From Candidatus Gastranaerophilales bacterium (GTDB lineage: Bacteria > Cyanobacteriota > Vampirovibrionia > Gastranaerophilales > Gastranaerophilaceae): a stretch of DNA of 55,566 nucleotides. A model generated the notes under the pieces. That model searched no databases. It was not told the origin of the DNA and worked only from the letters and a program-made list of their open reading frames with translations. Position 1 is the stretch's first letter. Every line of letters begins with the position of its first letter. Shown one piece after another: positions 39,631 to 55,566 of the stretch. The position numbers and the translations under genes are program-made. The DNA is taken from the NCBI GenBank assembly GCA_947589255.1, contig CANQAL010000002.1, positions 1 through 55,566 on the forward strand, in the 5' to 3' direction.

Positions 39631-40212
39631 TTATTTAGTACTATTTTCTATTTGTTTTATAAAACAAAATTGGACCAAAGAAATTCTGTCATAATTACTT
39701 AGCCCTTCAAATCTGCCCGAAGATACAAAATATCCGTCAACAGCTTCGGTTCTTATTGGGGAAAATTTGCATTTAATTTGTTTATTTTCCACCTCTATTA
39801 CCAAATCATATGACTTTAATAATTCCAGCTGTTCTTTTGTAATTACCTTTAAACCGCCGGCACTTATATCTATAATATTCGCATTATAATTTTTTTTACC
39901 GCAAGATAAGACAATTTTTTTATCCGTTAATACTCTTGAAAATTCTCTCTTTTGCAAATACTTATAACTTAACGGGAACCAAAGTGATACAATATTTCCT
40001 TGAACTTCCTTAACGATTGTTTCAAAATACAATTGACCTTTTGGGGTCATTGCAAATAATTCTACCGTTTCATCTACTTCATATTTACCTTCTAATTGCA
40101 ATTCCACATTGAAATATTCCTCTGTTACTTCAACCACCGTGCATTTTGTTGCATTATCAATACTTCTTGATAAAATACAAAATTCTTTACCTTTTAAAAT
40201 ATATTCCCGCAT
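39631..40212 (-). CDS. PilZ-domain (YcgR-like) cyclic-di-GMP binder
   Basis: A 193-residue protein. The first half is a YcgR-type beta-barrel, and the second a PilZ domain with QKREFSRV (the RxxxR motif) and DISAGGLKV (the D/NxSxxG motif). It would bind cyclic-di-GMP and act on motility or secretion. ATG 40212 is preferred over GTG 40218. It follows the M16 peptidase by 36 bases and lies beside a cyclic-di-GMP phosphodiesterase pair. No flagellar genes are visible; a pilus target is possible. Confidence 0.8.
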   Translation of the reverse strand: MREYILKGKEFCILSRSIDNATKCTVVEVTEEYFNVELQLEGKYEVDETVELFAMTPKGQLYFETIVKEVQGNIVSLWFPLSYKYLQKREFSRVLTDKKIVLSCGKKNYNANIIDISAGGLKVITKEQLELLKSYDLVIEVENKQIKCKFSPIRTEAVDGYFVSSGRFEGLSNYDRISLVQFCFIKQIENSTK

Positions 40213-40248
40213 ATACACTCTTTTCTTTATTTCAATTTAAAATATTTT

Positions 40249-42864
40249 TTATAATTTTTCAATAGTTTTTCCATTGCCCAAGACCGTAAATACATAGGGC
40301 TTTGAAAAATATTTATTTGCGGTTTTAATAATATCCTGTACACTTACAGAATTTATTAATTTAGGATATTTTTCTATAAATGTATAATCTCTTCCCGTTA
40401 TTTCAAGCGAATTTATAACTGAAGCTTTATCCATATTTGTTTCCATTGATAATACAAAATTTCCCAGCAGTTTATCCTTTGCCTCCGTTAACTCTTTATT
40501 TGTAACAAATTCATGCTTTAATTTATCAATTTCTTTTAATAAACCGGTTTTTGCCATATTCCCCGATTTAGGATTTGTAGCAATATATGTAACGAATATC
40601 CCTTTATTTGTATTGGCTGAAAACGCAGACCCGACTTGATAAGCAAGCCCTTGTTCATCCCTTAGCTGCGTAAATAATCTTGAACTCATGCCGGAACCTA
40701 AAATTGCATCCATGACCTGCAAAGTTGCCCAGTCTTTTTCATTTATAACCCCATCAGTGAGCCATCCGAATACAAGCCAAAGTGCTTCCGTATCCTTTTT
40801 TACTTTTACTGTCTTATTTTGAGTTAAGGGTTTATATTTATTTGCAAATTGTGTTAAATTAATTTTCGGTGAGTTATCATTTTCCAGTAATTCGGAAAAA
40901 TAGTTAATGTATTCCTGCGCATTAACATTACCGTTTATAGTTATTACAACATTTTGAGCAGGAAATAAATTTTTATAAAATTCCTGAACATCCTGATATT
41001 TTATTGCGGGTATTGTTTTTTCCAATAATTTTCCCGTATTTCCATATGGTGTTCCTTGCCATATTACTGTTTTAAATTCATCGAAAACTAAAGATTCAGG
41101 CAAATTTTTACTCTTTTTTATTGAATTTAATTTATCTTCTTTAACTTTTGCCACATCAAATCCGTCAAGAGTTGCATTTTTAGCTGCTTCTTTAAATATA
41201 TCCAATGCCAAATCTTTTTCATTTTTAGTAAATTTTGTTACAATACTAAATGAATCTCCGCTTGCCGAAGGAACTAATCTTATTCCGTTTTCCTCCAATG
41301 TTTGCGGAAACTCCTGACTTCTGTATTTATTTGTACCTTTTAAAATTGTATCAGCTGTTATTGTAGCAATTCCCGGAATTTTTTCAAGATTGTTTCCGCC
41401 TCTTGAGGTCATTTCCATTGCAATTATATCGTTAGCCGTATTTTTTGTTATAACAAGCACAGCACCATTTTCCAGCTGATATTTTGTTGTATCGGCATTA
41501 CTGCTTATTATTTTTGCACTGTATTCTTTTTTAGGCGATACCGCTTCTTTTACAGGTTCGGATTTTTCGGGTAATACTATTGAAATAACAGCATTTTCCG
41601 CATTTAAATATGTTTTGGCGACTCTTTTTAAATCTTCTGCCGTTACTTTGTTTATATTTTCAATATAATTTTTGTAATATGAAGTATTATCGGTAATCGT
41701 ATAAATATACCCTATTTCTTCCGCTATATTTGATACGGATTCCCTTGAATAATATGTATCTCTTTCTATTATATTTTTAGCTTTCTTTATTTCATCATCA
41801 GTAATTTCATTTTTCTTAAGATTTTTTATTTCTTCAAACACTGCATCTTTAATTCTTTGAACATCGGAAGAGGTAAAATCCGCTGAAATATAAAATATAG
41901 AATCATCTTTCATTGAAGAATTGGAGGCTGAAATATTATTAACATATCTTTTTTGCTCTTTCAGTTCTTTATATAATCTTGAAGATTTTCCATCTCCCAA
42001 GATTGTTGCAAGAACATCAAGCGCATAGGAATCTTTGCAATCAGGGCTGTTCGCTCCTTTAAACCCTATTAAAATATACCCCGTTTCTACATTTAATCGG
42101 GTTTGATTTTCTATTTGCGATATGGGTTTTTTATCCGCTTTATAAATCGGTCGTTTTGTTTTATTCAAAGTTAAATTATCTGATTTATTAAATTTTTGTT
42201 TTACCGCTTCTAAAGCTTTATTGGTATCAACATCACCGGCAATAACGGTTATCATATTATCAGGAGTATACCAGGTATTATAAAAATCAAGAATTTGCTC
42301 TCTTGATATTGTTTCTATAACCTCCTTAGTACCGATTACATCTCTTTTATAAGGATGATGTTTATAAAATCCTTTTATCATATTTTTATATAAAATCGTT
42401 CGAGGATTATCATTATTTTTTGAAATTTCTTCAATTACAACTTTCCGTTCCTTTTCCAGTTCTTTTCTCGGTATTAACGGATTTAAAAGCATATCCGAAT
42501 GCAAATCCAATGCCAAATCAAAATACTGTGACGGGATTAATATATAATAATGAGTAAAATCTTTACTTGTAGCGGCATTTGTAACAGCTCCCTTTGATTC
42601 TAATATTCTGTCAAACTCTTTACTCGGGTGTTTTGGTGTTCCTTTAAAAAATAGATGCTCTAAAAAATGCGCTACACCGTTATTTTCATCCGTTTCATTT
42701 ATTGAACCCGTTTTTATCCAGGTATCAATTATTACTATTGGATTGTCATGAACCTCTTTTATTACAACCTTTTGCCCGTTATCAAGATTAAATGTTGAAA
42801 AATCACTTGCATAAGTAACTAATCCTATAAATATTAATATTAAAGTTAAAACTATTTTTCTCAT
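40249..42864 (-). CDS. M16 zinc peptidase, two-domain secreted form
   Basis: An 871-residue protein with a signal peptide (about 1-19) and two M16 halves. The first half has the inverted zinc motif H66-x2-E69-H70 (HFLEHLFFKG) and a downstream Glu in KVVIEEISKNN. The second half lacks the zinc motif, as in pitrilysin-like proteins, and has an LGSGMSSRLFTQLRDEQGLAY substrate segment. It probably degrades peptides in the periplasm. It is upstream of the PilZ gene on the same strand. Confidence 0.9.
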   Translation of the reverse strand: MRKIVLTLILIFIGLVTYASDFSTFNLDNGQKVVIKEVHDNPIVIIDTWIKTGSINETDENNGVAHFLEHLFFKGTPKHPSKEFDRILESKGAVTNAATSKDFTHYYILIPSQYFDLALDLHSDMLLNPLIPRKELEKERKVVIEEISKNNDNPRTILYKNMIKGFYKHHPYKRDVIGTKEVIETISREQILDFYNTWYTPDNMITVIAGDVDTNKALEAVKQKFNKSDNLTLNKTKRPIYKADKKPISQIENQTRLNVETGYILIGFKGANSPDCKDSYALDVLATILGDGKSSRLYKELKEQKRYVNNISASNSSMKDDSIFYISADFTSSDVQRIKDAVFEEIKNLKKNEITDDEIKKAKNIIERDTYYSRESVSNIAEEIGYIYTITDNTSYYKNYIENINKVTAEDLKRVAKTYLNAENAVISIVLPEKSEPVKEAVSPKKEYSAKIISSNADTTKYQLENGAVLVITKNTANDIIAMEMTSRGGNNLEKIPGIATITADTILKGTNKYRSQEFPQTLEENGIRLVPSASGDSFSIVTKFTKNEKDLALDIFKEAAKNATLDGFDVAKVKEDKLNSIKKSKNLPESLVFDEFKTVIWQGTPYGNTGKLLEKTIPAIKYQDVQEFYKNLFPAQNVVITINGNVNAQEYINYFSELLENDNSPKINLTQFANKYKPLTQNKTVKVKKDTEALWLVFGWLTDGVINEKDWATLQVMDAILGSGMSSRLFTQLRDEQGLAYQVGSAFSANTNKGIFVTYIATNPKSGNMAKTGLLKEIDKLKHEFVTNKELTEAKDKLLGNFVLSMETNMDKASVINSLEITGRDYTFIEKYPKLINSVSVQDIIKTANKYFSKPYVFTVLGNGKTIEKL

Positions 42865-42989
42865 AAAAAATCCTCAAAATATCCCTTTATAAGTATATTA
42901 TACATTATTTATTATGAAAATAGTCTTTTTGCGAATTAATTCCGTAAGGTATACTTTTTATTTATTAAAAATCGTGATAATATTAACAC

Positions 42990-43546
42990 ATGACAACCGA
43001 AAAAGAAAAAATGCTTAAGGGCGAATTATATGATGCAAATAATGATAAGTCCTTAATTAAAGAACGAGCTGAATGCAAACAGTTGTGTTTTCAATATAAT
43101 AATATATCTCCCGAAAAAATTGCGGATAGGAAAGAATTAATAAAAAAATCGTCGGCAAAACAAAAGGCGAATTTTTAATAGAACAGCCTTTTATGTGTGA
43201 TTACGGTTATAATATTGAACTTGGCAAAAATTTTTATTCAAATCATAATCTTATAATTTTAGACTGCGCAAAAGTAACTTTCGGAGATAATGTTTTTATT
43301 GCACCTAATTGCGGTTTTTATACGGCAGGTCATCCGCTTGATTATGAAACAAGAAATAAAGGACTGGAATGGGCAAAACCGATTACGGTCGGCAATAATG
43401 TCTGGATTGGCGGAAACGTTGTTGTTCTTGGCGGTGTTACCATAGGGAATAACGTTGTAATCGGTGCAGGCTCGGTTGTTACAAAAGATATCCCAGATAA
43501 TTCGCTTGCTTACGGAGTTCCTGCTAAAATAATGAAAAAACTATAA
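42990..43546 (+). pseudogene. Maltose/galactoside O-acetyltransferase-like gene, frameshifted
   Basis: Two reading frames together make one hexapeptide-repeat acetyltransferase. The first (42990-43178, 62 residues) has the Mac N-terminal helix (MTTEKEKMLKGELYDANN). The second (frame used from about 43142, ATG 43193) has the left-handed beta-helix (ITVGNNVWIGGNVVVLGGVT, the catalytic-type His in TAGHPLD). Moving from one frame to the other at the seven-A run 43142-43148 gives the uninterrupted KIVGKTKGEFLIEQPF. The A-run is in the dnaX-like slippery phase, so a programmed or slipped frameshift is an alternative to a broken gene or a sequencing error. Confidence 0.8.
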
Positions 43547-44785
43547 TGCAGCTGCCTGTTCTTGAACATATTTATCCGCCGGAGCAAGTGATTGCGCTTT
43601 TTCTATAGCATTTTTTGCCTCTGTTAGATATTTATTTTTATGAGTTTGTTTATATAAATATTCATTTGCATAAGAAATGTATAAATAATTTACATAATCT
43701 TTTCCGCCGAGTTTTTCAAAATACTTTATGGCATTCTCCATATTTCGGTTTCTATAACTTGTATATGCTATTCTTTTAAGCATTGCATCTCTATTTTCAG
43801 GCTTATAGTAATTGTGTGATTCAGTATCCTTACTTATTACTATTGATACTCTGTCAGATGACTTTTTTACATCCAAAACATTGGAATTAATTATGTTATA
43901 TTTCCCTTCGTTTACCCATTCTTTAGGAAATGTAGCACGATTTTCCATTATACTTTCAATTCTTTTATCCGTCATCGGATGATCATCACTCAGAGTTTTA
44001 ACATTAGGTAAAGCATTCATAAATGTTAAGGCTTCCATACCCTTATCCATATTATATCCTGCTCGTGTCATTAATTCTGCTCCTAATGTATCTGCAATAT
44101 ATTCCATATTTCTTAATTCGGCAAGATATTTCTTTTTTAAAACAGTTGTTGTAAGACCATCAACAGAACTTCCTGAAATGTCTTTTAATTTTTTTAATCT
44201 TGTATACATTTCAGCAGTCCGCTGTTCATGACCTAAAATTTGATGTCCCATTTCATGCCCGATAATAAATGCTAAAGCATCGGGATTTGTATATAAACTG
44301 TCGTATAATGCCGTATTTATATATATAAAGTTTGCTGATGATGTTGCGGCATTAAATTCATCTTCTGATTTCCTGATTGCAATTCTCCAGTTAATATAAT
44401 CAAGATTATTTGCTCTGATTATCTTTTCTGCAATCCTATATACATTATAAAAATCTACAGCTGCAGGCTGAACATTTACACTACTTAAATTTGTACTGAG
44501 TGCTTTTTTGATTTTTGTATTATATATTTCATTATCTTTTGCAATTTTAGCTTTATATTGACTTTCTTTTACCGGCGGGATATTTGAAAGTGATATAAGA
44601 TGAGGATCTTTAAGTTCAATATCATTGTTTATTTTTGGCATATCATATTTTGCCGTATGTTTTTTTACGGATTCATACTTAACATTTTTCTTTGTTTCTT
44701 TTAACTGCTTATCTAAATATGAACCTGCGAAAACAGGCAAATTTATAGACATTATCAGTAAAATTGCAAAAATCTTTTTCTTCAT
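43541..44785 (-). CDS. M48-family zinc metallopeptidase, secreted
   Basis: A 414-residue protein with a signal peptide (MKKKIFAILLIMSINLPVFA). The zinc motif H177-EMG-H181 follows the family's usual GHEMGHQILGHE, with a third ligand Glu expected near EYIADTLGAELM. The C-terminal region (about 310-405) is TPR-like. This is the BepA/LoiP-like layout of periplasmic proteases that act on outer-membrane assembly. ATG 44785 is preferred over 44824 because AAGGAG lies just upstream. It meets the acetyltransferase gene convergently with a short overlap. Confidence 0.85.
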   Translation of the reverse strand: MKKKIFAILLIMSINLPVFAGSYLDKQLKETKKNVKYESVKKHTAKYDMPKINNDIELKDPHLISLSNIPPVKESQYKAKIAKDNEIYNTKIKKALSTNLSSVNVQPAAVDFYNVYRIAEKIIRANNLDYINWRIAIRKSEDEFNAATSSANFIYINTALYDSLYTNPDALAFIIGHEMGHQILGHEQRTAEMYTRLKKLKDISGSSVDGLTTTVLKKKYLAELRNMEYIADTLGAELMTRAGYNMDKGMEALTFMNALPNVKTLSDDHPMTDKRIESIMENRATFPKEWVNEGKYNIINSNVLDVKKSSDRVSIVISKDTESHNYYKPENRDAMLKRIAYTSYRNRNMENAIKYFEKLGGKDYVNYLYISYANEYLYKQTHKNKYLTEAKNAIEKAQSLAPADKYVQEQAAAL

Positions 44786-44903
44786 AACTACTCCTTTATT
44801 TATAAATAGTATTCCAAAACTCAATATAGTGCAAACTGCATTTCATAAAGTGATTTTCTTGGACAAAGCATGTGTGCTATGATGTCATTAAAAGGAGAAA
44901 CTT

Positions 44904-45938
44904 TTGTTAGCATACACATATAAAAACAATGGAGTTTTTGAACTTACTGAAAAACCAAAACCCAAACTTCAATCTCCAAAAGATGCAATTGTTAAGATTA
45001 CAATGAGCAGCATCTGTACAAGCGACCTGCATATTAAAAACGGTTCTGTGCCTAAAGCAGTGTTAGGAATAACTGTCGGGCATGAGATGGTCGGAATTGT
45101 TGAAGAAACCGGAGCCGAAGTTAAAAGTGTTAAAAAGGGCGACAGAGTAACCGTAAATGTAGAAACATTCTGCGGAGAGTGTTTTTTCTGTAAAAACGGA
45201 TTTGTAAATAATTGCACTGATAAAAACGGAGGCTGGGCTTTAGGCTGCCGTATAGATGGAGGTCAAGCGGAATATGTAAGAGTTCCTTATGCGGACCAGG
45301 GATTAAATAAAATTCCCGAATCTGTTTCGGATGAACAGGCTCTTTTTACGGGTGATATCTTAGCAACAGGTTATTGGGCAGTAAAAATTTCAGAAATTAA
45401 AGAAACAGATACCGTTTTGATAATAGGAGCAGGCCCTGCGGGAATTTGCACTTTACTTTGTGCAATGTTAAAAAATCCTAATAAAATTATTGTATGCGAA
45501 AAAGATGAAACAAGAAGAAATTTTGTAAAAAAACATTATCCTGATGTTATTGCTATTGAGCCTGAAAATTGCCTTGAAACGGTAAACAAAGAAAGCGAAC
45601 ACGGAGGCGCCGATGTTGTTATAGAAGCTGCAGGAAGTGAAGAATCATTTCAAATGGCTTGGCAATCAGCCAGACCCAATGCAATCGTAACTATCGTAGC
45701 ACTTTATAATAAGCCTATGATTCTGCCTCTGCCTGAGATGTACGGAAAAAACCTAACATTTAAAACAGGAGGTGTAGACGGGTGCGACTGCGATAAAATA
45801 CTTTCTTTAATTGAGCAGGGGAAAATTGATACAACACCTTTAATTACACATAAATTTGCGCTTAAAGATATTGAAAAAGCTTATGAAATATTTGAAAATA
45901 AACTTGATAACGTCATAAAAATCGCTATTGTAAATTAA
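44904..45938 (+). CDS. Zinc-dependent alcohol dehydrogenase (MDR family)
   Basis: A 344-residue oxidoreductase with a TTG start behind AAAGGAG. The catalytic zinc site is seen in CTSDLHIKNG and GHEMVGIVEETG, and structural zinc in CGECFFCKNGFVNNC. The NAD(P)-binding Rossmann domain is VLIIGAGPAGIC. The family includes alcohol, sorbitol and threonine-type dehydrogenases; the substrate cannot be told. It stands alone between convergent and divergent neighbours. Confidence 0.9.
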   Translation: MLAYTYKNNGVFELTEKPKPKLQSPKDAIVKITMSSICTSDLHIKNGSVPKAVLGITVGHEMVGIVEETGAEVKSVKKGDRVTVNVETFCGECFFCKNGFVNNCTDKNGGWALGCRIDGGQAEYVRVPYADQGLNKIPESVSDEQALFTGDILATGYWAVKISEIKETDTVLIIGAGPAGICTLLCAMLKNPNKIIVCEKDETRRNFVKKHYPDVIAIEPENCLETVNKESEHGGADVVIEAAGSEESFQMAWQSARPNAIVTIVALYNKPMILPLPEMYGKNLTFKTGGVDGCDCDKILSLIEQGKIDTTPLITHKFALKDIEKAYEIFENKLDNVIKIAIVN

Positions 45939-45970
45939 AATATTTTTTATTATTTTTTACCGCAAAACTA

Positions 45971-46222
45971 CTATAATTTAACCTGCCTTTTAATCCACTC
46001 CATAATTATGGAGACTAAATATTCCTATTCTTGTTTAGTTAATTCTCTGCCTTTTGAGATTTTATGCCATTTTTCAATACAGCCCCTGCAACAGGCCGCT
46101 GTTGCGTGCTGTGCGATAAAAACAGGGTGTCCTTGCATTGGAGTTTGATTCCCGAGTTCAGGATTTACCCGATAGTTTATAATTTGTCGGAATGCCTTAT
46201 AATTACTTGCATTTACCGTCAT
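45971..46222 (-). pseudogene. DUF4186-like gene remnant with in-frame TAG
   Basis: On the minus strand ATG 46222 opens a frame carrying the DUF4186 core: QTPMQGHPVFIAQHATAACC, then CRGCIEKWHKISKGRELTKQE. An in-frame TAG (46025-46027) follows, and the same frame then continues as EYLVSIIMEWIKRQ to a second TAG at 45971-45973, as expected of the family's C-terminus. The first about 40 residues of the family are missing. The gene looks decayed; readthrough of the internal TAG is less likely. Its 5' part overlaps the promoter of the TPR gene. Confidence 0.7.
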
Positions 46223-46233
46223 CAGATTTTACT

Positions 46234-46267
46234 CAACTTGACAAGGGTCGGCACCTGCACTTAAACT
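46234..46267 (+). promoter_or_regulatory. Promoter-like motif upstream of the TPR gene
   Basis: CAACTTGACAAGGGT (46234-46248) contains a perfect TTGACA (46238-46243). A weak -10 (TAAACT, 46262-46267) lies 18 bases on. The same 15-base word occurs at 47064-47078 and TAAACTTA follows in both. The transcript would begin about 20 bases before the ribosome site of the TPR gene. Confidence 0.5.
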
Positions 46268-46290
46268 TATTCGTATATAAGGGGTGTCAA

Positions 46291-46989
46291 ATGAAAGTAA
46301 AAGAATATTTCAAACAGGGTTATGACAAGCAAACAACAAAAAACTATAAGGAAGCTATCAAAGATTACAATAAAGTTATTGAGCTTGATAATGGTTTTGA
46401 ACGGGCTTATGTTCAAAGAGGTTTTTGCAGATTTCAATTAAAAGATTACAAAAGTGCCTTAAATGACTTTAAAACCGCTATGGCATTAAATCCCAATGAC
46501 GCAAGAACATATTTAAATGCAGCTTTTATATTATTTGAACAAAATATCGGAACTAAAGATACATTTTATCTTGATAAAGCAATTGAACTGAATTCTGATG
46601 ATATGGCAGAAGCATATTATATAAGAGGAACAATTCGCTATGCTAATTTAAATAAGTATGAGCTTGCAATTGAAGACTTTAAAAAGGCAATAGAAATGGA
46701 TTTTTGTTCCGATATTTGCTATTTAAGAATTGCAGACTGCTACAGATGTTTAGATGAACTTGATAAAGCTCTTTTGAATTATTATAAAGTATTGGAACTA
46801 AAACCGCAGTCCTACTATAAGGCAGCGGCTTTAGGCAACATCGGTTATATAAAACATCTGTATGGGCTTTTTAAAGATGCTATGAGGTATTATAAAAAAT
46901 CCAAGAAAACAAACCCTAACTATAGAGTTCTTGATGAATTTATTGATATGTGCAAACAGTCTTTAAGAGAAGAAAGGAATAATACATAG
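46291..46989 (+). CDS. Tetratricopeptide-repeat protein
   Basis: A 232-residue cytoplasmic protein composed mainly of TPR units, each with the A/G/Y/L-x-A-x-x-F pattern (AIKDYNKVIELDNGFERAY, ALNDFKTAMALNPNDARTYL, AIEDFKKAIEMD, ALLNYYKVLELKPQS, AMRYYKKSKKTNPN). At least five repeats are visible. ATG 46291 is chosen behind AAGGGGTG rather than the in-frame upstream ATG 46192, which lies in the DUF4186 remnant. It precedes the peptide-modification genes and shares their promoter motif, so it may scaffold them, but this is inference. Confidence 0.75.
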   Translation: MKVKEYFKQGYDKQTTKNYKEAIKDYNKVIELDNGFERAYVQRGFCRFQLKDYKSALNDFKTAMALNPNDARTYLNAAFILFEQNIGTKDTFYLDKAIELNSDDMAEAYYIRGTIRYANLNKYELAIEDFKKAIEMDFCSDICYLRIADCYRCLDELDKALLNYYKVLELKPQSYYKAAALGNIGYIKHLYGLFKDAMRYYKKSKKTNPNYRVLDEFIDMCKQSLREERNNT

Positions 46990-47158
46990 TATAATAAATT
47001 TTTTAAAACCCTTGTATCAATTAAGTTTCAAGAATTTGGGAATATGAACAAACTGCGCTTATGCAACTTGACAAGGGTAAGAGCATAAACTTACAATATT
47101 TTTACAGAAGGATGTATTACTTTATTTAGGTTGGTGTATAAAAAAAAGGAGAATAAAA
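46990..47158 (+). promoter_or_regulatory. Promoter region of the radical SAM/SelO-like cluster
   Basis: It holds CAACTTGACAAGGGT (47064-47078; TTGACA 47068-47073) with TACAAT (47092-47097, 5 of 6 to TATAAT) 18 bases after it. ACCCTTGT (47008-47015) is the exact complement of ACAAGGGT (47071-47078), so a long-range inverted repeat is possible. The 5' leader would then be about 55 bases to ATG 47159. Confidence 0.5.
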
Positions 47159-47315
47159 ATGCTTAAAATTTCAAGAATTGCAAGACACACAGTTATTACA
47201 ATGGGGACATGTCCCGAATATAGCGAAATTATGTGCGGAATTTTGTATAGATGTTGCTAAAATACAAGCTTTTTTACTTGGCGGCTTTAATTTATTGAAA
47301 AAACCAATTGGGTAA
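47159..47315 (+). CDS. Small ORF with frame conflict, candidate peptide precursor
   Basis: ATG 47159 has an excellent AAAGGAG site 7 bases upstream, but its frame yields only 33 residues of atypical composition. The other frame, entered at TTG 47178 and ending at TAA 47315, reads like a real protein end: LLQWGHVPNIAKLC, then AEFCIDVAKIQAFLLGGFN, then LLKKPIG. It has a Cys-x3-Cys pair. Removal of one T at about 47169-47171 would join ATG to this frame and give about 51 residues. It may be a precursor peptide for the modification enzymes next to it, a frameshifted gene, or the 3' end of a lost gene. Confidence 0.4.
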
Positions 47316-47348
47316 TTCGGCAGTGAAGGTTTGCAGATAGGAAAATTT

Positions 47349-48263
47349 ATGTTTGATTTCTTAAAGTACAGTAAATTTAATATATTAAATAATATTGAAC
47401 TAAGCAAACGGTTTATGCCAAAAGGATTGGATTATGAAAAACATCTTGCAACCTGTGTTTCAACAAGACATGGACGTTCTTTTGCAATAAAAGATACGGA
47501 TTATAATTGGATACTTGTTAAAGGCGGAGGTTGGAACTATAATGGTCCTGTATTATATCGTTCGCCTAAAGATGCCGAATGGTTTTGGGGTGTTTTTGAT
47601 GAAAAGTATGCCGTTAGAGAATCAGCCGTCAGCAAGTCTTTGGAAAAAATTTCAGATGATTTCCCTAAAGTATTGTATTATAAACGTTTTGAAGATTATG
47701 AATTGCCGAAAGAATATGAATTTATTAAAACAATCAAGCATACTGACGGAACTCTCGTACATCCTTGTTTATTATATACACAAGTTAAAACACCCATAAG
47801 AGTAGCTGATTTAGCTTTTTTTAAAGATGAATATAAAAAAGAAATTATAGATACGTACAGTGACTACTGGAATATCACTCCAAAAGACTTTGCAGATACC
47901 TTTATTAAAGTTTTAGCTCAACATGTAGGAATAATGCACAAAAACGGATTTATAAATGATTCTTTGGAATACTCCAATATAACAATATTAGGCGAGATAA
48001 TAGATTATGAATGGATAACGGCTCCTGATATTCTACTGCCTGACGGCTCATCCGGTAAAATAATACAACACGAAAGAAAAGAAAAAGAAATTTTCTATGC
48101 CGTTGAAGTTGTTATCCTATTAAAATCAATGCTCTACGAAGAATTTAACTTCTATGAAATATACCAAAAATTTATTGAGGAATATAGAAAATACAACGAT
48201 GAATACGTAAAATCAAATGAGAATATAAAAAAAATACTAAATAAGGAAAGGTTTATACTATAA
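47349..48263 (+). CDS. SelO-like kinase-fold protein
   Basis: A 304-residue cytoplasmic protein. It resembles SelO-type protein AMPylases, which have a kinase fold and bind ATP in flipped orientation. ILVKGGGWNYNGP (K58) matches the SelO QLKGAG loop; AVRESAVSKSLE matches RSSIREYL; TPIRVADLAFF matches the RVA-SF motif; SNITILGEIIDYEW (N209, D218) matches NMSILG-TIDYGP. The residue before N209 is Ser208 where SelO has its proposed general-base Asp, so activity may be altered. It is about 60% of normal SelO length. ATG 47349 is chosen behind AGGA; the alternative TTG is at 47331. Its stop abuts the maturase start directly. Confidence 0.6.
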   Translation: MFDFLKYSKFNILNNIELSKRFMPKGLDYEKHLATCVSTRHGRSFAIKDTDYNWILVKGGGWNYNGPVLYRSPKDAEWFWGVFDEKYAVRESAVSKSLEKISDDFPKVLYYKRFEDYELPKEYEFIKTIKHTDGTLVHPCLLYTQVKTPIRVADLAFFKDEYKKEIIDTYSDYWNITPKDFADTFIKVLAQHVGIMHKNGFINDSLEYSNITILGEIIDYEWITAPDILLPDGSSGKIIQHERKEKEIFYAVEVVILLKSMLYEEFNFYEIYQKFIEEYRKYNDEYVKSNENIKKILNKERFIL

Positions 48264-49664
48264 ATGACTCAATTGATACAACCAAAATGGCTTGCATATC
48301 AAACATATAAATTTGGAACGGAAGACAGCAAAACATTTATTTCTAACGAAAGACTACACGAATATGTTTTATTGGAAGGACTTGCTTCTGATTTATGGAA
48401 AGTTATATCGGATACTCAAGATTATGACGAAGTTAAAAAGTGGGCGACAAGTAAAGGACTGGATAAAGAACTGGATGGATTTATAGATGAACTTAAAACT
48501 CAAGATCTTATATTAAACAATATAGACAATATAACAAATATAGAAGCCAACATTCAGCCTGTCGGTTGTGATAACGAAGAAGAAACCTTAAAACTCGAAG
48601 ACGATATGATGAAATGGTGCTTTAAAAACGGCTATCTGTATTCATTATTTGTAGAGTTAACATATAATTGCAACTTAAAATGCGTACATTGCTACAATCC
48701 TAAGAATGTAAGCAGTACTTATATCAATTTAGACAAAATGAAACAAATAATTGATGAAGCAAGAAAACTCGGTGTATTTAAAATTACATTCTCCGGCGGT
48801 GAATGCACTTTAGATAAAGACTTTATTGAAATAGCAGAATACGCAAGGAATAAACGTATGTCTGTCGAGATATTTACTAATGGTCAAACATTATATGATA
48901 ATCCTGAATTGTTGAAAAGAATAGTAAATCTCTACCCTTATAGGATTGGTTTGAGCATGTACAGCTTGAATGAAAATACTCATGAACAAATTACATCCGT
49001 TAAAGGCTCTCATAATAAAACATTGAGTGTAATTAAGGAACTCAGAGCAAAGAATGTTAATATCCAAATAAAGAACTTCTTGTTAAACATTAACTGCAAA
49101 GATTGTATATCCGTTAAACAATTTGCCAATGAGATACAAGCAAATACGGCAGGTGATACTTCATTAACACCTACAATTGAAGGCGATACAAAAAATTTTC
49201 AATATATTGTCGGGGAAGAAGATTTGTATGAACTCTACACAAACCCGAAATCTCCTTTGAATGTCAAAAATACTTTTAAACGAGATATAAATAAATTGCT
49301 AAATGAGGGGTTATGCTCCGGCGGTAGTTTTAGTCTTTGTATAACTCCTACATTAGAAGTTCATCCTTGTGTATCATTACCGATTAATTTAGGCAACTTA
49401 AACGATATTAGTTTAAAAGACATTTGGCAGGGTTCTGTAAATAAAGATTTAAACAGCAAACTTTATCAGTGGCAACAAGTTTCTTTCAAAGACCTTAAAG
49501 AATGCTATAAAGAAGATTACTGTGCGTTTTGCAGCTATTGTGCAGGCATGGGAATGTTAGAAAACGGATATTTAAAGAAATCCGATGTCTTATGTCGTCA
49601 AGCCAAAATTAAACAAAAAGCATATAACGATTTGAACAGCGAGAAAGAAATGCAGGGAGTATAA
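48264..49664 (+). CDS. PqqD-like/radical SAM/SPASM peptide maturase
   Basis: A 466-residue enzyme. Residues about 25-85 form a PqqD-like winged helix (YVLLEGLASDLWKVI, then acidic helices), a RiPP recognition element. The radical SAM domain has C136-x3-C140-x2-C143 (CNLKCVHC) and FSGGECTLDKDF. The C-terminal SPASM region has CSGGSFSLC, VHPC, and CYKEDYCAFCSYC for auxiliary Fe-S clusters. This layout is typical of enzymes that cross-link or otherwise modify ribosomally made peptides, as in sactipeptide, quinohemoprotein and mycofactocin pathways. It is directly coupled to the SelO-like gene and ends five bases before a small membrane peptide gene. Confidence 0.85.
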   Translation: MTQLIQPKWLAYQTYKFGTEDSKTFISNERLHEYVLLEGLASDLWKVISDTQDYDEVKKWATSKGLDKELDGFIDELKTQDLILNNIDNITNIEANIQPVGCDNEEETLKLEDDMMKWCFKNGYLYSLFVELTYNCNLKCVHCYNPKNVSSTYINLDKMKQIIDEARKLGVFKITFSGGECTLDKDFIEIAEYARNKRMSVEIFTNGQTLYDNPELLKRIVNLYPYRIGLSMYSLNENTHEQITSVKGSHNKTLSVIKELRAKNVNIQIKNFLLNINCKDCISVKQFANEIQANTAGDTSLTPTIEGDTKNFQYIVGEEDLYELYTNPKSPLNVKNTFKRDINKLLNEGLCSGGSFSLCITPTLEVHPCVSLPINLGNLNDISLKDIWQGSVNKDLNSKLYQWQQVSFKDLKECYKEDYCAFCSYCAGMGMLENGYLKKSDVLCRQAKIKQKAYNDLNSEKEMQGV

Positions 49665-49668
49665 GAAA

Positions 49669-49782
49669 ATGAATTTGTTTGACTATTTTAAAAGGATTAT
49701 CCATAACTTTGTTGCAAAGCATGTAGTAGCAGTCTTTGTGATTTTTTTGATACTTGTTATTTTTGCAATAATTACAGGGTAG
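49669..49782 (+). CDS. 37-residue single-TM peptide
   Basis: ATG 49669 lies just after the maturase stop. The peptide has a short polar, positively charged N-terminus (MNLFDYFKRIIHNF) and a single TM helix (VVAVFVIFLILVIFAIITG). A GGGAG ribosome site is a little far away (about 13 bases). It could be a small membrane protein, a leaderless substrate or an export-linked factor. Too short for family assignment. Confidence 0.55.
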   Translation: MNLFDYFKRIIHNFVAKHVVAVFVIFLILVIFAIITG

Positions 49783-49786
49783 GGAA

Positions 49787-50200
49787 ATGATTAGAGTTAT
49801 TATTTTGTGTTTAATATTATTTTACTCGTGTTGTGTATTTGCTTATGATACAAATATGTCCCCTGAACTATATCGCAGCTATGGGAAACAACAACAGAAA
49901 GCGAAAGATTCTAAGGGTAACACTGTTCTTATAACTCCTCATTATGAAAATTATACGGACAGAAATCAGAATGTTTCGGAAAAGATTGTTGCAATCTATG
50001 ATAAACACAGTCCTGCATACGGTTACAGGTATGTTCTTTATACTCCAATAGGTTCATATGTGGGTCATCATAAGATAATGCAACGCAGCCCCAACGGCTA
50101 TGGGTTTACACCAATCCCCGATGGCGGTGAAGGAAGCCAAACACCCTGTTTTAAGACAATACAAGAAGCAAAACACTTTTATTATCCTCAATGGTATTAA
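49787..50200 (+). CDS. Secreted hypothetical protein
   Basis: A 137-residue protein with a signal peptide (RVIILCLILFYSCCVFAYD). The mature part is rich in Tyr, Gly, His and Pro, with segments YVLYTPIGSYVGHHKIM and GYGFTPIPDGGEGSQTPC. No family is recognised. It begins four bases after the membrane peptide and precedes the basic protein gene, all on one strand. A secreted accessory protein of the cluster is possible. Confidence 0.6.
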   Translation: MIRVIILCLILFYSCCVFAYDTNMSPELYRSYGKQQQKAKDSKGNTVLITPHYENYTDRNQNVSEKIVAIYDKHSPAYGYRYVLYTPIGSYVGHHKIMQRSPNGYGFTPIPDGGEGSQTPCFKTIQEAKHFYYPQWY

Positions 50201-50209
50201 GGAATAATT

Positions 50210-50764
50210 ATGAGCAAACACAAATTAGCCAAAAACAGTAAAAATGAACTTACCAATACCGATAAAAGCAATAAGCCTGCTAAAGTATCAAAAGATACAA
50301 AGTTAGCATCCAAGAAGAACTACCTTGTTAAAACTGCAAACGGTGCTATAGCACATTGCGTAAATACAGGTAAAGGGCTTGTAAAATTAACAAATAGAGC
50401 CTTAACAATAATCGGAAATAAATTAAAAGAAGTTGACTGGGAAAAGGTTATATTAACAATATTGAAAAACTTATTTTTCACAACTCAAGCAGCAAATAAG
50501 GTTTATTACAGAGAAATTAAAACTTATAATACAAAAGAGCAATATCAAACTCAAGAAAACCCATACCAAGAACAAATACAAGGAACTAAAACCGATAGCA
50601 TAGAAGTTAATAAAATAAAAGGAATATCAAATAAAGAACAAAAGAGCATTAAGAATAACAGCAACATTAAAAGTATTGAGAACACACAAAATAGAAGCAT
50701 TTTGAAGCCTCAGCAAAATTACTTGATGATAGAAAAGCAAAATAAACAAAAGAAAGAGACATAG
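50210..50764 (+). CDS. Basic, Asn/Lys-rich hypothetical protein
   Basis: A 184-residue protein with high Lys and Asn content and low complexity at both ends. The middle (about 75-100) has a hydrophobic-amphipathic stretch (VDWEKVILTILKNLFFTTQAA). No signal peptide or known domain is seen. Its stop overlaps the start of the J-domain gene by one base (ATAGTGG), so the two are translationally coupled. Confidence 0.6.
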   Translation: MSKHKLAKNSKNELTNTDKSNKPAKVSKDTKLASKKNYLVKTANGAIAHCVNTGKGLVKLTNRALTIIGNKLKEVDWEKVILTILKNLFFTTQAANKVYYREIKTYNTKEQYQTQENPYQEQIQGTKTDSIEVNKIKGISNKEQKSIKNNSNIKSIENTQNRSILKPQQNYLMIEKQNKQKKET

Positions 50765-51729
50765 TGGAAGAATATATAAAGTTACTTGATTTGCCTTATG
50801 AATTTGATTTATCGGATTTAAAGAAAGCATATCGCAAAAAAGTATTACAATATCACCCTGATAAAGCAAATAATGAAGCAGAAAGAGTCGGATATGAAGC
50901 ATTGATGAAAAAACTCAATGAAGCCTACGATTACTTAAAAGACTATTTAGAACACCATGATGGCAAGTATTCTAAGGCAAATGAAAGCACAAACAGCTAC
51001 AATGATTATTCAACCGATAATACGGATAATTCAGCACAAGAAGATTACCAAGAAGAAGATTATCAAGAAGAAAATGAACAATATACGCAAGAAGAAAACT
51101 ACGAAAATATAGATTATATAGGCAAGATTATAGATTTTTACAAATCAATGTTTAATCCCATAAAGGTTTATAAGGTATTCAAAGAAATATACGGCAAAAA
51201 TCCTAAATATACAATTATTGCATTTATTATAGCATTGCTATTCATACCTCTTTGGAACAAGTTTACTGATATTGTATATCCGAATAGCAGCCAAACCTAT
51301 ACCCAAGAATCAAAACAAGAAACTAAACAAGAAATTCCCCCGCAGAATATTCCTCAAAATAACACTATAAATCAGCAAAGCAGTTCTCAAGAGAACAATA
51401 AAGATATATATAAAGGTGTAGCAAGAAGCGAATGGAATGTATATATGAGGGATTTGCAAAGCCAAATTAAAAGGAACTGGTCATTACCGCAAGATATAGA
51501 AGCAAGCAAACCTGATAATGCTAAAGTGGTAACACTATTTAAAATATCAAAAGAAGGAAGTTTAATGAGTGAACCTGTTATAGAAAAATCATCAGGGATA
51601 GAAAGTGTAGATTTATCTTGTATTAAAGCAATAAAACTGACAGCTCCCTTTAGACCGCTTCCAAACGGTTTTACCGGTGAATATCTTGATACATCTTTTA
51701 CTTGTGAAGCTTTAAGACATTATAATTAG
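50764..51729 (+). CDS. J-domain/TM/TonB-C fusion protein
   Basis: A 321-residue protein from GTG 50764. The N-terminal J domain (about 1-62) has YHPDK with the HPD motif that activates DnaK-type Hsp70s. An acidic Gln/Glu linker, a single TM helix at about 153-170 (TIIAFIIALLFIPLW), and a Pro/Gln-rich spacer follow. The C-terminal domain (about 220-321) matches TonB/TolA C-terminal folds: VARSEWNVYMRDLQSQIKRNW, VVTLFKISKEGSL, and CIKAIKLTAPFRPLP. A J domain in the cytoplasm joined to an energy-transducing type domain in the periplasm is an uncommon combination; TonB/TolA partners (ExbB/D) are not seen. Confidence 0.7.
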   Translation: MEEYIKLLDLPYEFDLSDLKKAYRKKVLQYHPDKANNEAERVGYEALMKKLNEAYDYLKDYLEHHDGKYSKANESTNSYNDYSTDNTDNSAQEDYQEEDYQEENEQYTQEENYENIDYIGKIIDFYKSMFNPIKVYKVFKEIYGKNPKYTIIAFIIALLFIPLWNKFTDIVYPNSSQTYTQESKQETKQEIPPQNIPQNNTINQQSSSQENNKDIYKGVARSEWNVYMRDLQSQIKRNWSLPQDIEASKPDNAKVVTLFKISKEGSLMSEPVIEKSSGIESVDLSCIKAIKLTAPFRPLPNGFTGEYLDTSFTCEALRHYN

Positions 51730-51783
51730 ATTAAAAACACTTGCTTTTCAGAGAATATACATTTACTAAATTAAGGAGATACT

Positions 51784-52017
51784 ATGAAACAATTATTGAT
51801 GGGTTTGATTATAGGTTTAACAGCAGGTTTAATATGTACAGGATGCTCAATGGCTAATGCACACATAACGTCAGACCCCATGCAAGTTATATTAACCGAA
51901 AGAAACTTTGTTAACACTACAAAAGTTACAACGGAAGACGGAACATATCGTATATTTACTATTGAAAGCACAGACGGTAAAGGCGGCGCCGGAATTAGTG
52001 CGGTAAAAATAAAATAA
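51784..52017 (+). CDS. Small lipoprotein-like protein
   Basis: A 77-residue product. The N-terminus MKQLLMGLIIGLTAGLICTGC has a possible lipobox with Cys in CTGCS, though the -3 position (Cys) is non-standard. The short mature part is beta-rich (TYRIFTIESTDGKGG). AAGGAG (51774-51779) precedes the ATG. It closes the cluster. Confidence 0.55.
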   Translation: MKQLLMGLIIGLTAGLICTGCSMANAHITSDPMQVILTERNFVNTTKVTTEDGTYRIFTIESTDGKGGAGISAVKIK

Positions 52018-52052
52018 TTATTTCATAATAATAAAGTATAATTAAAAATCAA

Positions 52053-52143
52053 AAATGGACAGTGGACATGGCTCATACCTAAAAATCCCAAAAGCTTCCT
52101 GAAACGTACCAGAGAAGTATGCAAAGCTGTGCGTAGAATTTAA
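52053..52143 (+). other. Possible gene fragment
   Basis: A 29-codon stretch reads QWTWLIPKNPKSFLKR and TREVCKAVRRI to a stop, without a start codon. It looks like the end of a lost gene. I cannot name the family. The rest of the 155-base gap before hipA holds nothing recognisable. Confidence 0.25.
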
Positions 52144-52172
52144 AATGACTTTCAGATTAAGATTTAAATAAA

Positions 52173-53279
52173 TTAATTAAACAATTTCCTGCATTTTTCT
52201 TGAATGTCGAATGCAATATCTTTAGCAAATTTTTCTTTTAGTCCTATATTTTTTGCAACAGCTAAAACATCATCTAAAGCCGGATTTTTCCCTTCCCCAT
52301 TTATTGTTGTTGCATGTTCACCGTTAAATGAAGAACTATAAGTTAAATCGTATGCAGGAGATAGATGCCATTCTTTTTTGTTACTATCATACAAAAAAGA
52401 AAAGTTTTTTGAATGGTCATCTCGATTGTGAGCAAATACATTGAAACACATTAACCTATACAATTGTTCAATATCTTCATAATTTCTTGTAAGTTCAAGT
52501 GTAAGTTTCATCAATAAATTGTAATCAAGATTAGGAAACCTGTGACTTGTTTCTAATAGTCCGCTTGCCGATACCATATGCACTTTTTGACCATTTTTAC
52601 GGTCAAATCTTTTTATACCAAAATAACCTGAGCAATTTTCTGATGGAAAAAGTTTAGTTTCAGACATTTTAATTCCGCAGTCTTTCGCGCATAATGAATA
52701 TTGATACTCTTTTTCGCCAATATTTTTAGGATCAGTTGATGACGGAAATTTAATTATCCAATCTTCATTATCTATAGATGTTAAAATTTTTGGTCGAGTC
52801 CCACCTGACGAACCACCTAATTGAAAAAGTTCATCTAAATTGTCTGAATCCTGTGATTCTAATATTTTTGAACATTCTTGTGCGAGAACATCAAGATCAG
52901 AAGCATTGTTTTCTGTTTTAAACTTATGTTCGGGTTTATATGTTAAAGCACCCATCCCGCATTCTTGAACAATTGCCAGTCGATTGATATTGTCAATTTC
53001 AGAAGGATTTATTTTGTTTTTTAAAAATAACCTGTCAACAAGTAATCTTCCCCAACCATCAGGCAAACTGTCATTAAAGACTCCAAACAACCCGTCAAAA
53101 GGTTCATATTTAGGGATAAAAACTTTTTTAAAAAGCGGTAAACTAAAAGGCGAGATGCTAAACCCTTTATTTAACCAATCAGAATCGTATTCAAATGCAA
53201 CAACTCTTTCGTGTGTTTTAGCAAGAGTACCAACTAAAATATCATTATAAAATACTTTTAAATATTTATAGTTGTCCAT
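52173..53279 (-). CDS. hipA: HipA-family toxin Ser/Thr kinase
   Basis: A 368-residue kinase of the HipA family, which arrests growth by phosphorylating targets such as tRNA synthetases. The N-terminal subdomain has DGLFGVFNDSLPDGWGRLL; the P-loop-like segment is LGGSSGGTRPKIL. Catalytic elements are FNVFAHNRDDHSKNFSF and SPAYDLTYS. It is somewhat shorter than E. coli HipA. The start overlaps the antitoxin gene by 14 bases, as usual. Whether the toxin is active cannot be told. Confidence 0.93.
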   Translation of the reverse strand: MDNYKYLKVFYNDILVGTLAKTHERVVAFEYDSDWLNKGFSISPFSLPLFKKVFIPKYEPFDGLFGVFNDSLPDGWGRLLVDRLFLKNKINPSEIDNINRLAIVQECGMGALTYKPEHKFKTENNASDLDVLAQECSKILESQDSDNLDELFQLGGSSGGTRPKILTSIDNEDWIIKFPSSTDPKNIGEKEYQYSLCAKDCGIKMSETKLFPSENCSGYFGIKRFDRKNGQKVHMVSASGLLETSHRFPNLDYNLLMKLTLELTRNYEDIEQLYRLMCFNVFAHNRDDHSKNFSFLYDSNKKEWHLSPAYDLTYSSSFNGEHATTINGEGKNPALDDVLAVAKNIGLKEKFAKDIAFDIQEKCRKLFN

Positions 53280-53550
53280 TTATAACCTCATCAATAGAAT
53301 TATAGGTTTTTTGCGTAAATAAGTTTTCAAAATCTTTCTCTAAATTAAGAGCAATTAGAATTTTTATCAATGAACTCAGTGAAATTTCATATTTTGATTC
53401 AAACCTTTTAACAGAACCAAGGCTAACACCTGATTTTGCAGCAAGTTGAACTTGTGAAATTTTAAGCATTTTTCTTTGCTGCTTAATCTTTAGAACAAAT
53501 TCTTTTGCAATATCAGTGGGCGGCTTTGGATTAAAAAGAAAATTATTCAT
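53266..53550 (-). CDS. hipB: HipB-like XRE antitoxin
   Basis: A 94-residue DNA-binding protein with an XRE helix-turn-helix (ISQVQLAAKSGVSLGSVKRFE). It is the first gene of the minus-strand operon with hipA. It should bind the toxin and repress its own promoter, which carries two TAATATATTA boxes (53554-53563, 53595-53604). Confidence 0.85.
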   Translation of the reverse strand: MNNFLFNPKPPTDIAKEFVLKIKQQRKMLKISQVQLAAKSGVSLGSVKRFESKYEISLSSLIKILIALNLEKDFENLFTQKTYNSIDEVINGQL

Positions 53551-53553
53551 AGC

Positions 53554-53606
53554 TAATATATTATATTATTTTTACTAAAATGTCAATATATAGATAATAT
53601 ATTATC
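53554..53606 (-). promoter_or_regulatory. hipBA promoter with paired palindromic operators
   Basis: On the minus strand TTGACA (53586-53581) is followed by a -10 such as TATAAT (53565-53560, 15 bases) or TAATAT (17 bases). TAATATATTA (53554-53563) overlaps the -10 region, and GATAATATATTATC (53593-53606), a perfect 14-base palindrome, lies just upstream of the -35. The two copies are 41 bases apart, consistent with cooperative HipB binding. Confidence 0.6.
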
Positions 53607-53677
53607 CAAAATGCAACATTAAAAAGATATGTTGTATTCTTTGAGATTGAGTTGTTCTAAATTTTAAACTTGCATTA

Positions 53678-55165
53678 TTACGTGATCTTGTTACTATTAT
53701 TATTTTGTAATTTTAACAATTCACAACAGTCTTTTCCTTTGCATACATATTCTAAACCCGTTGCATAAAGAATAAATGCACAAAGTTTTCCTTTTTGTTT
53801 ATGACAATATTCTTTTAAATCAAATTTTTCTTTGTTACAAAGAGGGCAATTCTCGCATTTATCTTTTGAACACATATTTGGAACGAAATTAAAAGTTATA
53901 TCAAAATCTTTTGGATAGCACTGTATTTCTTTATTTTTTTCTTTCCAATTGCTCAATTCCTTTTTTTCATATAATTCTCTTACAAACTTTGAAGATTTTT
54001 CAATATCTTTAAATTTATCATTGGCTTGTTGATTATTAAACCAAAAACACTTTGCAAATTTTAAGTTATTATTCCACACATCACCGGGAAGTTCAAACTC
54101 GTTTGCATTATCTTTTTGTAAACATTCTACTTTTTCACCTGTAACTATTTCAAAACATTTACTAAATATCGGGTGATAAATAAAATCCCTTGCAACACAC
54201 CATAAGCGTTTTGAATCATATTTATTTTCATTAAATGTATAAGCTTTTTTAAGCGGTTTTGTTTTTTCATTTATATACCACTTTTCTTCTATTTCAGGAT
54301 TGTCACCTAAATACTTTTTCGTAGTTTTACTATTCTTATAAAAAAATGTATTTTCTTTCTTTTTACTATTTTCACTTAAGCTAATCACACCATATTTTTC
54401 TTGTTTTAATATATTGCAAATATTTTTTTCGTTTCCTTTGACCTGCGGTATAAGTTGGTAAGTTAATCTATACATTGAATAGGCTAAAGAATATATTTTA
54501 TTCCTTGCTTCTTCATCATATACAACAGGTTTTTCTTCATTTTGATTTCCAATTGCATAATTTAAAAACTGTATGAAACTTCCTTCAAACTTTTCGCATA
54601 AATATACAAGAGTCTTATAAATACACAATAAATCAGTTATCATAAATCTGGAAGAAAATTTTGCTCGTTCTTTCATTAATTTATACTCAAAATATTTTTT
54701 TATGTGCTCCTTTTCATTGTCTTCAATATTATTGCAAAGATAATACGAGTATTTCTCCCCAAGATCACCATTTCCATTATTCTTTTTTTCGGATTCTACC
54801 ATTTTATTAATTAAATTTCTAATGAGCTTTCTTGTGTTTTCTTTTTGATAAATACCCTTTTTTCTTTGTTCAATAAAATTTTTAACCAAAGCGGAAATGG
54901 TATATCCCCCGGCTTTAAAAATATCTTCATAAGGCATTTGCCTATCACAAATATATACGAGATAATGCGTTAATAAAATTGCTTCAGCAGCTTCAGAGCT
55001 TGTATCATCTCCAACAAAGTTAAATAAACCATCATTGCAATAGTATTTAATTAAATCATATTGATTTTTTTTCGCACATTCCCATCTTAAATTTTCAAGC
55101 CAGGCAATAATTTTTAATTTTTTTTCAATTTTTTCAACATAAATTTTTTCTACAATGTTTTCCAT
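53678..55165 (-). CDS. Unrecognised Cys-rich C-terminal protein
   Basis: A 495-residue cytoplasmic protein with no TM helix. It is helical and Lys/Glu/Asn-rich, with a central hydrophilic section. The C-terminus is rich in Cys (CSKDKCENCPLCNKEKF, then CHKQKGKLC, YVC and KDCCEL), possibly a zinc or Fe-S site. ATG 55165 is chosen over 55234 because a GGA site lies upstream. It stands beside hipBA in an accessory region; a defence or stress role is conceivable but nothing in the sequence proves it. Confidence 0.65.
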   Translation of the reverse strand: MENIVEKIYVEKIEKKLKIIAWLENLRWECAKKNQYDLIKYYCNDGLFNFVGDDTSSEAAEAILLTHYLVYICDRQMPYEDIFKAGGYTISALVKNFIEQRKKGIYQKENTRKLIRNLINKMVESEKKNNGNGDLGEKYSYYLCNNIEDNEKEHIKKYFEYKLMKERAKFSSRFMITDLLCIYKTLVYLCEKFEGSFIQFLNYAIGNQNEEKPVVYDEEARNKIYSLAYSMYRLTYQLIPQVKGNEKNICNILKQEKYGVISLSENSKKKENTFFYKNSKTTKKYLGDNPEIEEKWYINEKTKPLKKAYTFNENKYDSKRLWCVARDFIYHPIFSKCFEIVTGEKVECLQKDNANEFELPGDVWNNNLKFAKCFWFNNQQANDKFKDIEKSSKFVRELYEKKELSNWKEKNKEIQCYPKDFDITFNFVPNMCSKDKCENCPLCNKEKFDLKEYCHKQKGKLCAFILYATGLEYVCKGKDCCELLKLQNNNSNKIT

Positions 55166-55383
55166 AAAATATTCCAACTCTTTTCTTATATTTATTATAT
55201 TTTTTATACACATATATGACAAAGATTTTAACAAACTGATTTTTTAAGATTTTGTACTTGAAAATACGAACGGGGAAGTCATTATAAATACCATATAAAG
55301 AATAAACCTGATATAGTCTTGTTTTGAGGTTTATTTGTGTAATTTAAAATAAAAATAGCCCGGGATAGTTATATCGTTGCTGA

Positions 55384-55413
55384 GCTTTGCAAAGCATACG
55401 AAAGAAGTATGCT
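55384..55413. repeat. Nested palindromes in intergenic region
   Basis: GCTTTGCAAAGC (55384-55395) is a perfect 12-base palindrome. It overlaps a 7-base stem, AGCATAC (55393-55399) with GTATGCT (55407-55413), loop of seven. The surrounding 290-base gap (55235-55523) has no other gene. Confidence 0.5.
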
Positions 55414-55467
55414 ACGGAACATTTATGTTTGTAATTATTGATACAAGATTTTTCTTCAGCTAAATGC

Positions 55468-55497
55468 TTGACTTATAGTTACTATCAAATTTATCAT
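55468..55497 (+). promoter_or_regulatory. Promoter-like site before the last gene
   Basis: TTGACT (55468-55473) and TATCAT (55492-55497, 5 of 6) are 18 bases apart, 27 bases before the ATG. Confidence 0.45.
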
Positions 55498-55523
55498 ATT
55501 ATTATAGAATTGGAGAGATAGTT

Positions 55524-55566
55524 ATGACAAAATCAAAAGTTTATTTTACTAAAGAAATTACCCCTC
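55524..55566 (+). CDS. Start of a DUF362-type gene (partial)
   Basis: Only the first 14 codons lie in the window (MTKSKVYFTKEITP). This matches the usual start of DUF362 iron-sulfur proteins as I remember them. GGAGAG precedes the ATG at a good distance. The rest runs off the right edge, so the call is tentative. Confidence 0.5.
   Translation, partial: MTKSKVYFTKEITP

Follow-up and report, generated by a model that had tools for sequence, protein, structure and literature searches.

Radical S-adenosylmethionine (SAM) maturases of sactipeptides and ranthipeptides, such as CteB, SkfB, AlbA and PapB, combine a recognition element (RRE) for ribosomally synthesized and post-translationally modified peptides (RiPPs) with radical SAM and SPASM domains, and act on a short cysteine-containing precursor encoded just upstream. 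Streptide, the product of a further peptide maturase, SuiB, instead carries a carbon–carbon link between lysine and tryptophan. The 55,566-nucleotide stretch analyzed here (hereinafter the window) is contig C2 of the 1.83-Mb genome of a Candidatus Gastranaerophilales bacterium, a member of an uncultured gut lineage. On its forward strand it carries a locus in which a 33-residue cysteine-containing peptide (47159–47260) and an RRE–radical SAM–SPASM protein (48264–49664) recapitulate the CteB/SkfB/AlbA/PapB arrangement; the locus differs from those systems in that its operon also holds a gene for a kinase-like protein (47349–48263). The radical SAM/SPASM part is thus of a known kind, while the kinase-like accessory is unusual. 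A first-pass annotation of the letters alone had proposed a RiPP-like locus pairing a SelO-like protein with a maturase at 46990–52017. Every open reading frame (ORF) it named was found, all on the forward strand, and its RiPP reading is strongly supported by the conserved precursor together with the RRE-bearing radical SAM/SPASM maturase.

The 466-residue maturase contains a Radical_SAM domain (E-value 2.6e-21) and a SPASM domain (PF13186, E 1.5e-6, above the Pfam cut-off). Across 20 homologues the three cysteines of the CxxxCxxC motif (C136, C140 and C143) and all seven SPASM cysteines (C351, C369, C414, C420, C423, C426 and C444) are invariant. In the AlphaFold2 (AF2) model (predicted local distance difference test score, pLDDT, of 87), the N-terminal region (residues 10–79; 48291–48500) forms three strands (10–15, 23–28 and 33–38) followed by three helices (40–51, 54–63 and 67–79), all at high pLDDT, and this β3-α3 order corresponds to the strict definition of the RRE (PMC12710340). 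The PqqD-like N-terminus seen in the first pass is accordingly borne out, both by this fold and by Pfam PqqD matches in two of the 20 homologues (best E 0.001). The best structural neighbors of the model are all peptide maturases, namely CteB (Z 23.1), SuiB with its bound precursor (5v1t, Z 22.2) and SkfB (Z 21.5). The SuiB alignment takes in nearly the whole chain (residues 3–446), RRE included; identity is nonetheless only 12%, and the cores of window-type peptides lack a conserved tryptophan or lysine pair. The enzyme thus has an RRE fold and groups structurally with peptide maturases; the lack of such a fold, or a grouping with non-peptide SPASM enzymes, would have counted against the reading of the earlier annotation. 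A viperin reading, prompted by PADLOC hits for pVip in the SAM core, was rejected because the protein has SPASM and RRE domains.

In the maturase tree, eight enzymes associated with peptides bearing an MLKIS leader form one clade with full support, and close relatives of the window enzyme (65–91% identity) all have a precursor upstream. The 33-residue ORF at 47159–47260 (MLKISRIARHTVITMGTCPEYSEIMCGILYRCC) is the precursor of this radical SAM/SPASM RiPP; it had been noted in the first pass as a small ORF with a strong ribosome site, which it has, but its role was overlooked. Nine copies occur at eight loci (the window included), each upstream of a close maturase relative, with two in tandem in genome G034, and their purine-rich ribosome sites are strong in nearly all cases. 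Residues 1–11 or thereabouts constitute a nearly fixed leader with the consensus MLKIS-x-hydrophobic-A/V-R/K-H-T/S (MLKISRIARHT in the window), followed by a fast-changing core in which two cysteines (Cys18 and Cys26 in the window) are invariant. Compared with the window, the leader codons of G199, G034, G005 and G068 display synonymous changes only, save for one change in G005. Among 191 genomes of the family, we found no match to the peptide better than E 0.01 apart from such a maturase. The precursor family is newly recognized and new to the libraries searched, having no match in Pfam, NCBIfam or PHROGs. Just 3′ of the peptide, the sequences of G005, G034 and G068 show a GC-rich inverted repeat and then a run of T residues, an arrangement to be expected if more peptide than enzyme is produced. 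A terminator scan of the window reported none right after the peptide, and an Rfam search of 40000–55566 returned no structured RNA.

We consider it very probable that the precursor and maturase together constitute a RiPP cassette. The 33-residue peptide would be made from a strong, locus-specific promoter, and its leader would be bound by the N-terminal RRE of the maturase. The SAM-binding [4Fe-4S] cluster and the SPASM auxiliary clusters would then cross-link the core, most likely by a thioether at Cys18 and/or Cys26 of the kind installed by sactipeptide and ranthipeptide maturases. The two invariant cysteines per core are compatible with such a bond, whether to an alpha carbon or to a beta or gamma carbon.

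The gene for the 304-residue kinase-like accessory occupies the space between precursor and maturase (47349–48263). Its stop at 48263 directly abuts the maturase ATG at 48264, as first described. The companion statement that all genes lie on one strand with gaps under 60 bases is right as to strand, and valid as to gaps only from this gene onward, because 88 bases separate it from the precursor stop (70 if it starts at the TTG at 47331). The name "SelO-like" likewise holds in part: a SelO-type active-site segment is present, but the protein has no match to PF02696, the profile of the AMPylating pseudokinase SelO, at E≤1 and is by profile not a member of the SelO family. Canonical SelO (PF02696) is absent from the window's genome, with none above cut-off in the sampled family genomes. 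The only curated profiles to report the accessory at a low E-value are Bud32 models, which match the C-lobe (residues 184–302) of both known copies at E 5e-6, albeit with 26 bits against a cut-off of 125. A phmmer search against the PDB gave weak matches only (E at least 0.22), with unrelated names.

The likeness to SelO is centered on the accessory segment GFINDSLEYSNITILGEIIDYE, which fits the pattern GFCHGVLNTDNMSIxGxxxDYG and shares with SelO both the Asn-to-Asp spacing and the I-LG-x-x-I-D-Y wording. Of the SelO active-site residues whose roles are described in PMC8097203 (Lys113, Glu136, Arg176, Arg183, Asn253 and Asp262), Asn253 and Asp262 are kept as Asn210 and Asp219 in the hhalign alignment, and an alignment by eye pairs Lys113, Glu136 and Arg183 with Lys58, Glu91 and Arg151. 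Thus, most of the residues predicted to bind nucleotide and metal appear to be retained. Other positions have changed: Arg176 corresponds to Thr144 (by eye), the Asp adjoining the metal-binding Asn of SelO (NTDN; before Asn253) is Ser209 in both copies, and the HGD motif of Bud32 reads NDS. By motif alignment, the accessory has no residues matching the kinase HRD Asp, SelO Asp252 or SelO Arg176. It is also shorter than SelO (304 versus about 470–520 residues), the window copy lacks the C-terminal regulatory cysteine, and its setting is a RiPP locus, unlike that of Bud32, a kinase/ATPase that serves tRNA t6A synthesis. Since it combines a Bud32 C-lobe match with an alignable SelO active site in the absence of a PF02696 match, it is best called a divergent SelO/Bud32-type kinase-like protein. 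It is a real gene under strong purifying selection, with a ratio of nonsynonymous to synonymous substitution rates (dN/dS) of 0.081 at dS 0.62 between the window and G199, about equal to that of the maturase (0.093).

Genome G199, which belongs to another genus of the same family, shows the same order of peptide, accessory and maturase with the stop and start again abutting; the record is the same contig as a rabbit-gut Gastranaerophilales metagenome-assembled genome, the closest other record with the whole gene set. The adjacency described in the first pass therefore extends beyond one genome, though it is not general. Of the eight maturase-clade loci, two (window and G199) have the kinase-like gene in the slot separating peptide and maturase. 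G034 instead encodes a protein of the 116-residue class there (126–133 residues depending on the start) and G068 one of 86 residues, whereas the slot is empty in G005, G003, G004 and G070. Such contents recall product-specific immunity genes, where unrelated small proteins replace one another or are missing. It is quite conceivable that the kinase-like protein leaves the peptide unmodified and serves in immunity or regulation, as a pseudokinase with the product, its target or the maturase as binding partner; the slot would then be an immunity/accessory slot. The loss of the HRD Asp and of the equivalents of SelO Asp252 and Arg176 would suit a protein of this kind; the apparent retention, judged from motifs, of most nucleotide- and metal-binding residues does not, and the four loci with an empty slot indicate that an immunity protein encoded there would not be general.

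The distribution of variable sites bears on what the accessory serves. From the maturase to the basic protein encoded downstream, 81 informative sites join the window with G034, as against 23 joining the window with G199 and 26 supporting the third grouping. At the very start of the maturase gene, over its first 100 bases, the counts are four sites for the window with G199, one for the window with G034 and one for G034 with G199. The window and G199 nevertheless share a peptide type, being identical at 17 of 17 residues from Thr17 with synonymous changes only over that part, whereas G034 has another peptide type despite its affinity to the window in the maturase region. Hence, the accessory segregates with the peptide type and not with the maturase. 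The simplest account would be that peptide and accessory were exchanged together as a cassette while the maturase behind them stayed fixed. One junction would then be close to the start of the maturase, where the few sites siding with G199 are what such a junction would give. Tyrosine recombinases and genes of replication type (as judged from their sequences) surround the G034 locus, which fits mobility.

An exchange of this type would mark the peptide, and not the maturase, as the partner of the accessory. An action of the kinase-like protein on the maturase, which the first pass had raised, or on some other protein of the cell, for example licensing through AMPylation, is accordingly improbable: the abutting genes are probably co-transcribed, as that idea would have it, but loci with maturases 83–91% identical to that of the window lack the accessory gene, and the accessory follows the peptide type. 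We view with similar skepticism the proposal that the gene is a chance hitchhiker without a role in the pathway. Its two occurrences, and the recombinase-rich surroundings of at least one locus (G034), would accord with such an origin; retention in two genera at the low dN/dS given above, stop and start abutting in both genomes and the same peptide type each time argue otherwise.

We therefore posit that the slot is an exchangeable accessory position and that the accessory most likely acts on, or protects against, its own peptide variant, as suggested by its association with one peptide type. It might modify that peptide, for instance by transferring a nucleotidyl or phosphoryl group to Tyr21, Ser22 or Tyr30, or serve it in some other way. 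Chemical modification of the peptide by the accessory is a tentative proposal. We would extend it, with equal reserve, to a SelO/Bud32-kind pseudokinase recruited as the second tailoring enzyme of a radical SAM-cross-linked peptide, where it would transfer a nucleotidyl, phosphoryl or similar group and be passed between loci with the peptide. If true, this would put the pseudokinase fold to a new use and provide a natural example of a precursor and its dedicated tailoring enzyme being swapped together ahead of a single maturase. A precedent for a kinase-derived tailoring enzyme of a natural product, alike by description only, is CalN; PMC13060819 cites this pseudokinase as forming a nitrile in the pathway to a marine toxin. 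In open-licence papers, a scope that is no proof of novelty, we found neither a RiPP pathway in which a SelO- or Bud32-like protein accompanies a radical SAM/SPASM maturase nor any RiPPs described from Gastranaerophilales/Melainabacteria.

Several observations weigh against this reading, in part or as a whole. The cassette is known here from its genes, so that product and activity are predictions; no protease or exporter was identified in it, and the maturase falls well short of the NCBIfam equivalog cut-offs for StsB (76 of 625 bits), AlbA (73 of 850) and SkfB (57 of 300). As to the accessory, the SelO signal by itself is weak: hhalign against 14 SelO sequences gave E 0.0016 for an active-site stretch of 32–40 columns, and a SelO hidden Markov model gave the two copies E 0.033 and 0.076, although both score higher than all 200 shuffles. 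An AF2 model built from the two sequences reached a pLDDT of 34, and the predicted fold and residue assignments consequently rest on motifs. Searches covering 194 relatives, 191 family genomes, 382 class genomes, a GTDB close-relative scan, IMG/VR, phages and plasmids recovered the accessory only in the window and in G199 (L022; one genome), which might reflect a single acquisition event. Finally, neither protein nor DNA trees of the maturase settle the order of the window, G034 and G199, and the argument for exchange accordingly draws on the site counts. During the same searches, weak matches to the accessory were seen in G046 and G050, and one in G481 was rejected as it lies inside a different gene, a frame resembling DNA polymerase IV.

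The promoter-like element preceding the peptide (47064–47097) comprises CAACTTGACAAGGGT, a spacer and TACAAT and is the best sigma-70-like match of the region (11/12). CAACTTGACAAGGGT is 15 bases long, includes a perfect −35 hexamer and occurs exactly twice in the 1.83-Mb genome, at 47064–47078 before the peptide and at 46234–46248 before a gene for a protein with tetratricopeptide repeats (TPR). In the latter case the element (46234–46267) ends in TAAACT. A third genomic copy of its core, TTGACAAGGGT, falls within a coding sequence resembling lpxD. Among the relatives, G199 and G005 likewise carry (A)CTTGACAAGGGT or TTGACAAGGGT 5′ of the peptide, and G034 carries the core 5′ of the TPR gene. 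A dedicated regulator may bind at CAACTTGACAAGGGT. The TPR protein (46291–46989, forward strand; 232 residues; TPR_1, E 1.2e-27) has copies in the same place in G034 (85% identical) and G199 (77%). Because its gene has this locus-specific element in common with the peptide, it is a probable member of the locus; the limits drawn in the first-pass annotation, starting at 46990, had left it outside.

The genes that annotation listed downstream of the maturase are all present on the forward strand. A 37-residue membrane peptide (49669–49782) is 95% identical in G034 and 59% in G199, with dN/dS of 0.19 against G034 and 0.64–0.76 in comparisons with G199. Next come a secreted protein of 137 residues (49787–50200), conserved in four loci, and a basic protein of 184 residues (50210–50764), 65–81% identical in G199, G005 and G034. 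These are followed by a 321-residue fusion of a J-domain, a transmembrane segment and a TonB C-terminal domain (50764–51729; DnaJ, E 1.6e-10; TonB_2, E 2.8e-9) and a lipoprotein-like protein of 77 residues (51784–52017), 82–83% identical in G034 and G199. The secreted, J-domain/TonB and lipoprotein-like genes could be thought to share a pathway with the maturase, the secreted protein being, for example, its substrate, and their close succession, kept at up to four loci, lends this idea some appeal. We nevertheless hold it to be very unlikely, as the secreted protein turns up both in unrelated neighborhoods and in genomes that have no close copy of the maturase, and four maturase-clade loci lack these genes. 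The occurrence of the secreted protein in such other contexts suggests that the downstream genes, from the secreted protein to the lipoprotein-like gene, are probably passengers, at least in part.

At one of these other sites (L122:2944–5505), the secreted protein recurs as the C-terminal part of an 853-residue protein, the N-terminus of which looks kinase-like and the neighbors of which appear from their sequences to be vWA- and PP2C-like genes. A TonB-type C-terminus related to that of the 50764–51729 fusion lies beside the secreted protein there, and in the fusion itself an acidic linker separates the J-domain from the transmembrane segment. Directly downstream of the locus, the reverse strand (52173–53550) codes for a HipA-like toxin and a small helix-turn-helix-like partner of the HipBA type.

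The genus also has many more distant maturase paralogues (33–43% identical), several of them behind short cysteine-rich ORFs with other leader types. Ten such loci (L027, L029, L030, L031, L033, L034, L035, L039, L040 and L041) pair a distant paralogue with a short cysteine-rich precursor, the leaders being of the types MKKLYIKKR.. and acidic ..EINEFFxDIIE... A TupA-like ATP-grasp enzyme (PF14305; checked in two) is encoded beside distant paralogues, and a further RiPP class composed of these three elements is possible. At L031, the interval about 1.4 to 0.2 kb 5′ of the maturase encodes a 404-residue maturase-like protein that seemingly lacks the CxxxCxxC motif. Its gene immediately precedes those of the precursor and the intact maturase, and the protein is a possible cluster-less partner subunit. 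At L032 (G007), a 563-residue protein resembling asparagine synthetase is encoded directly 3′ of the maturase, which suggests that another kind of tailoring may operate there.

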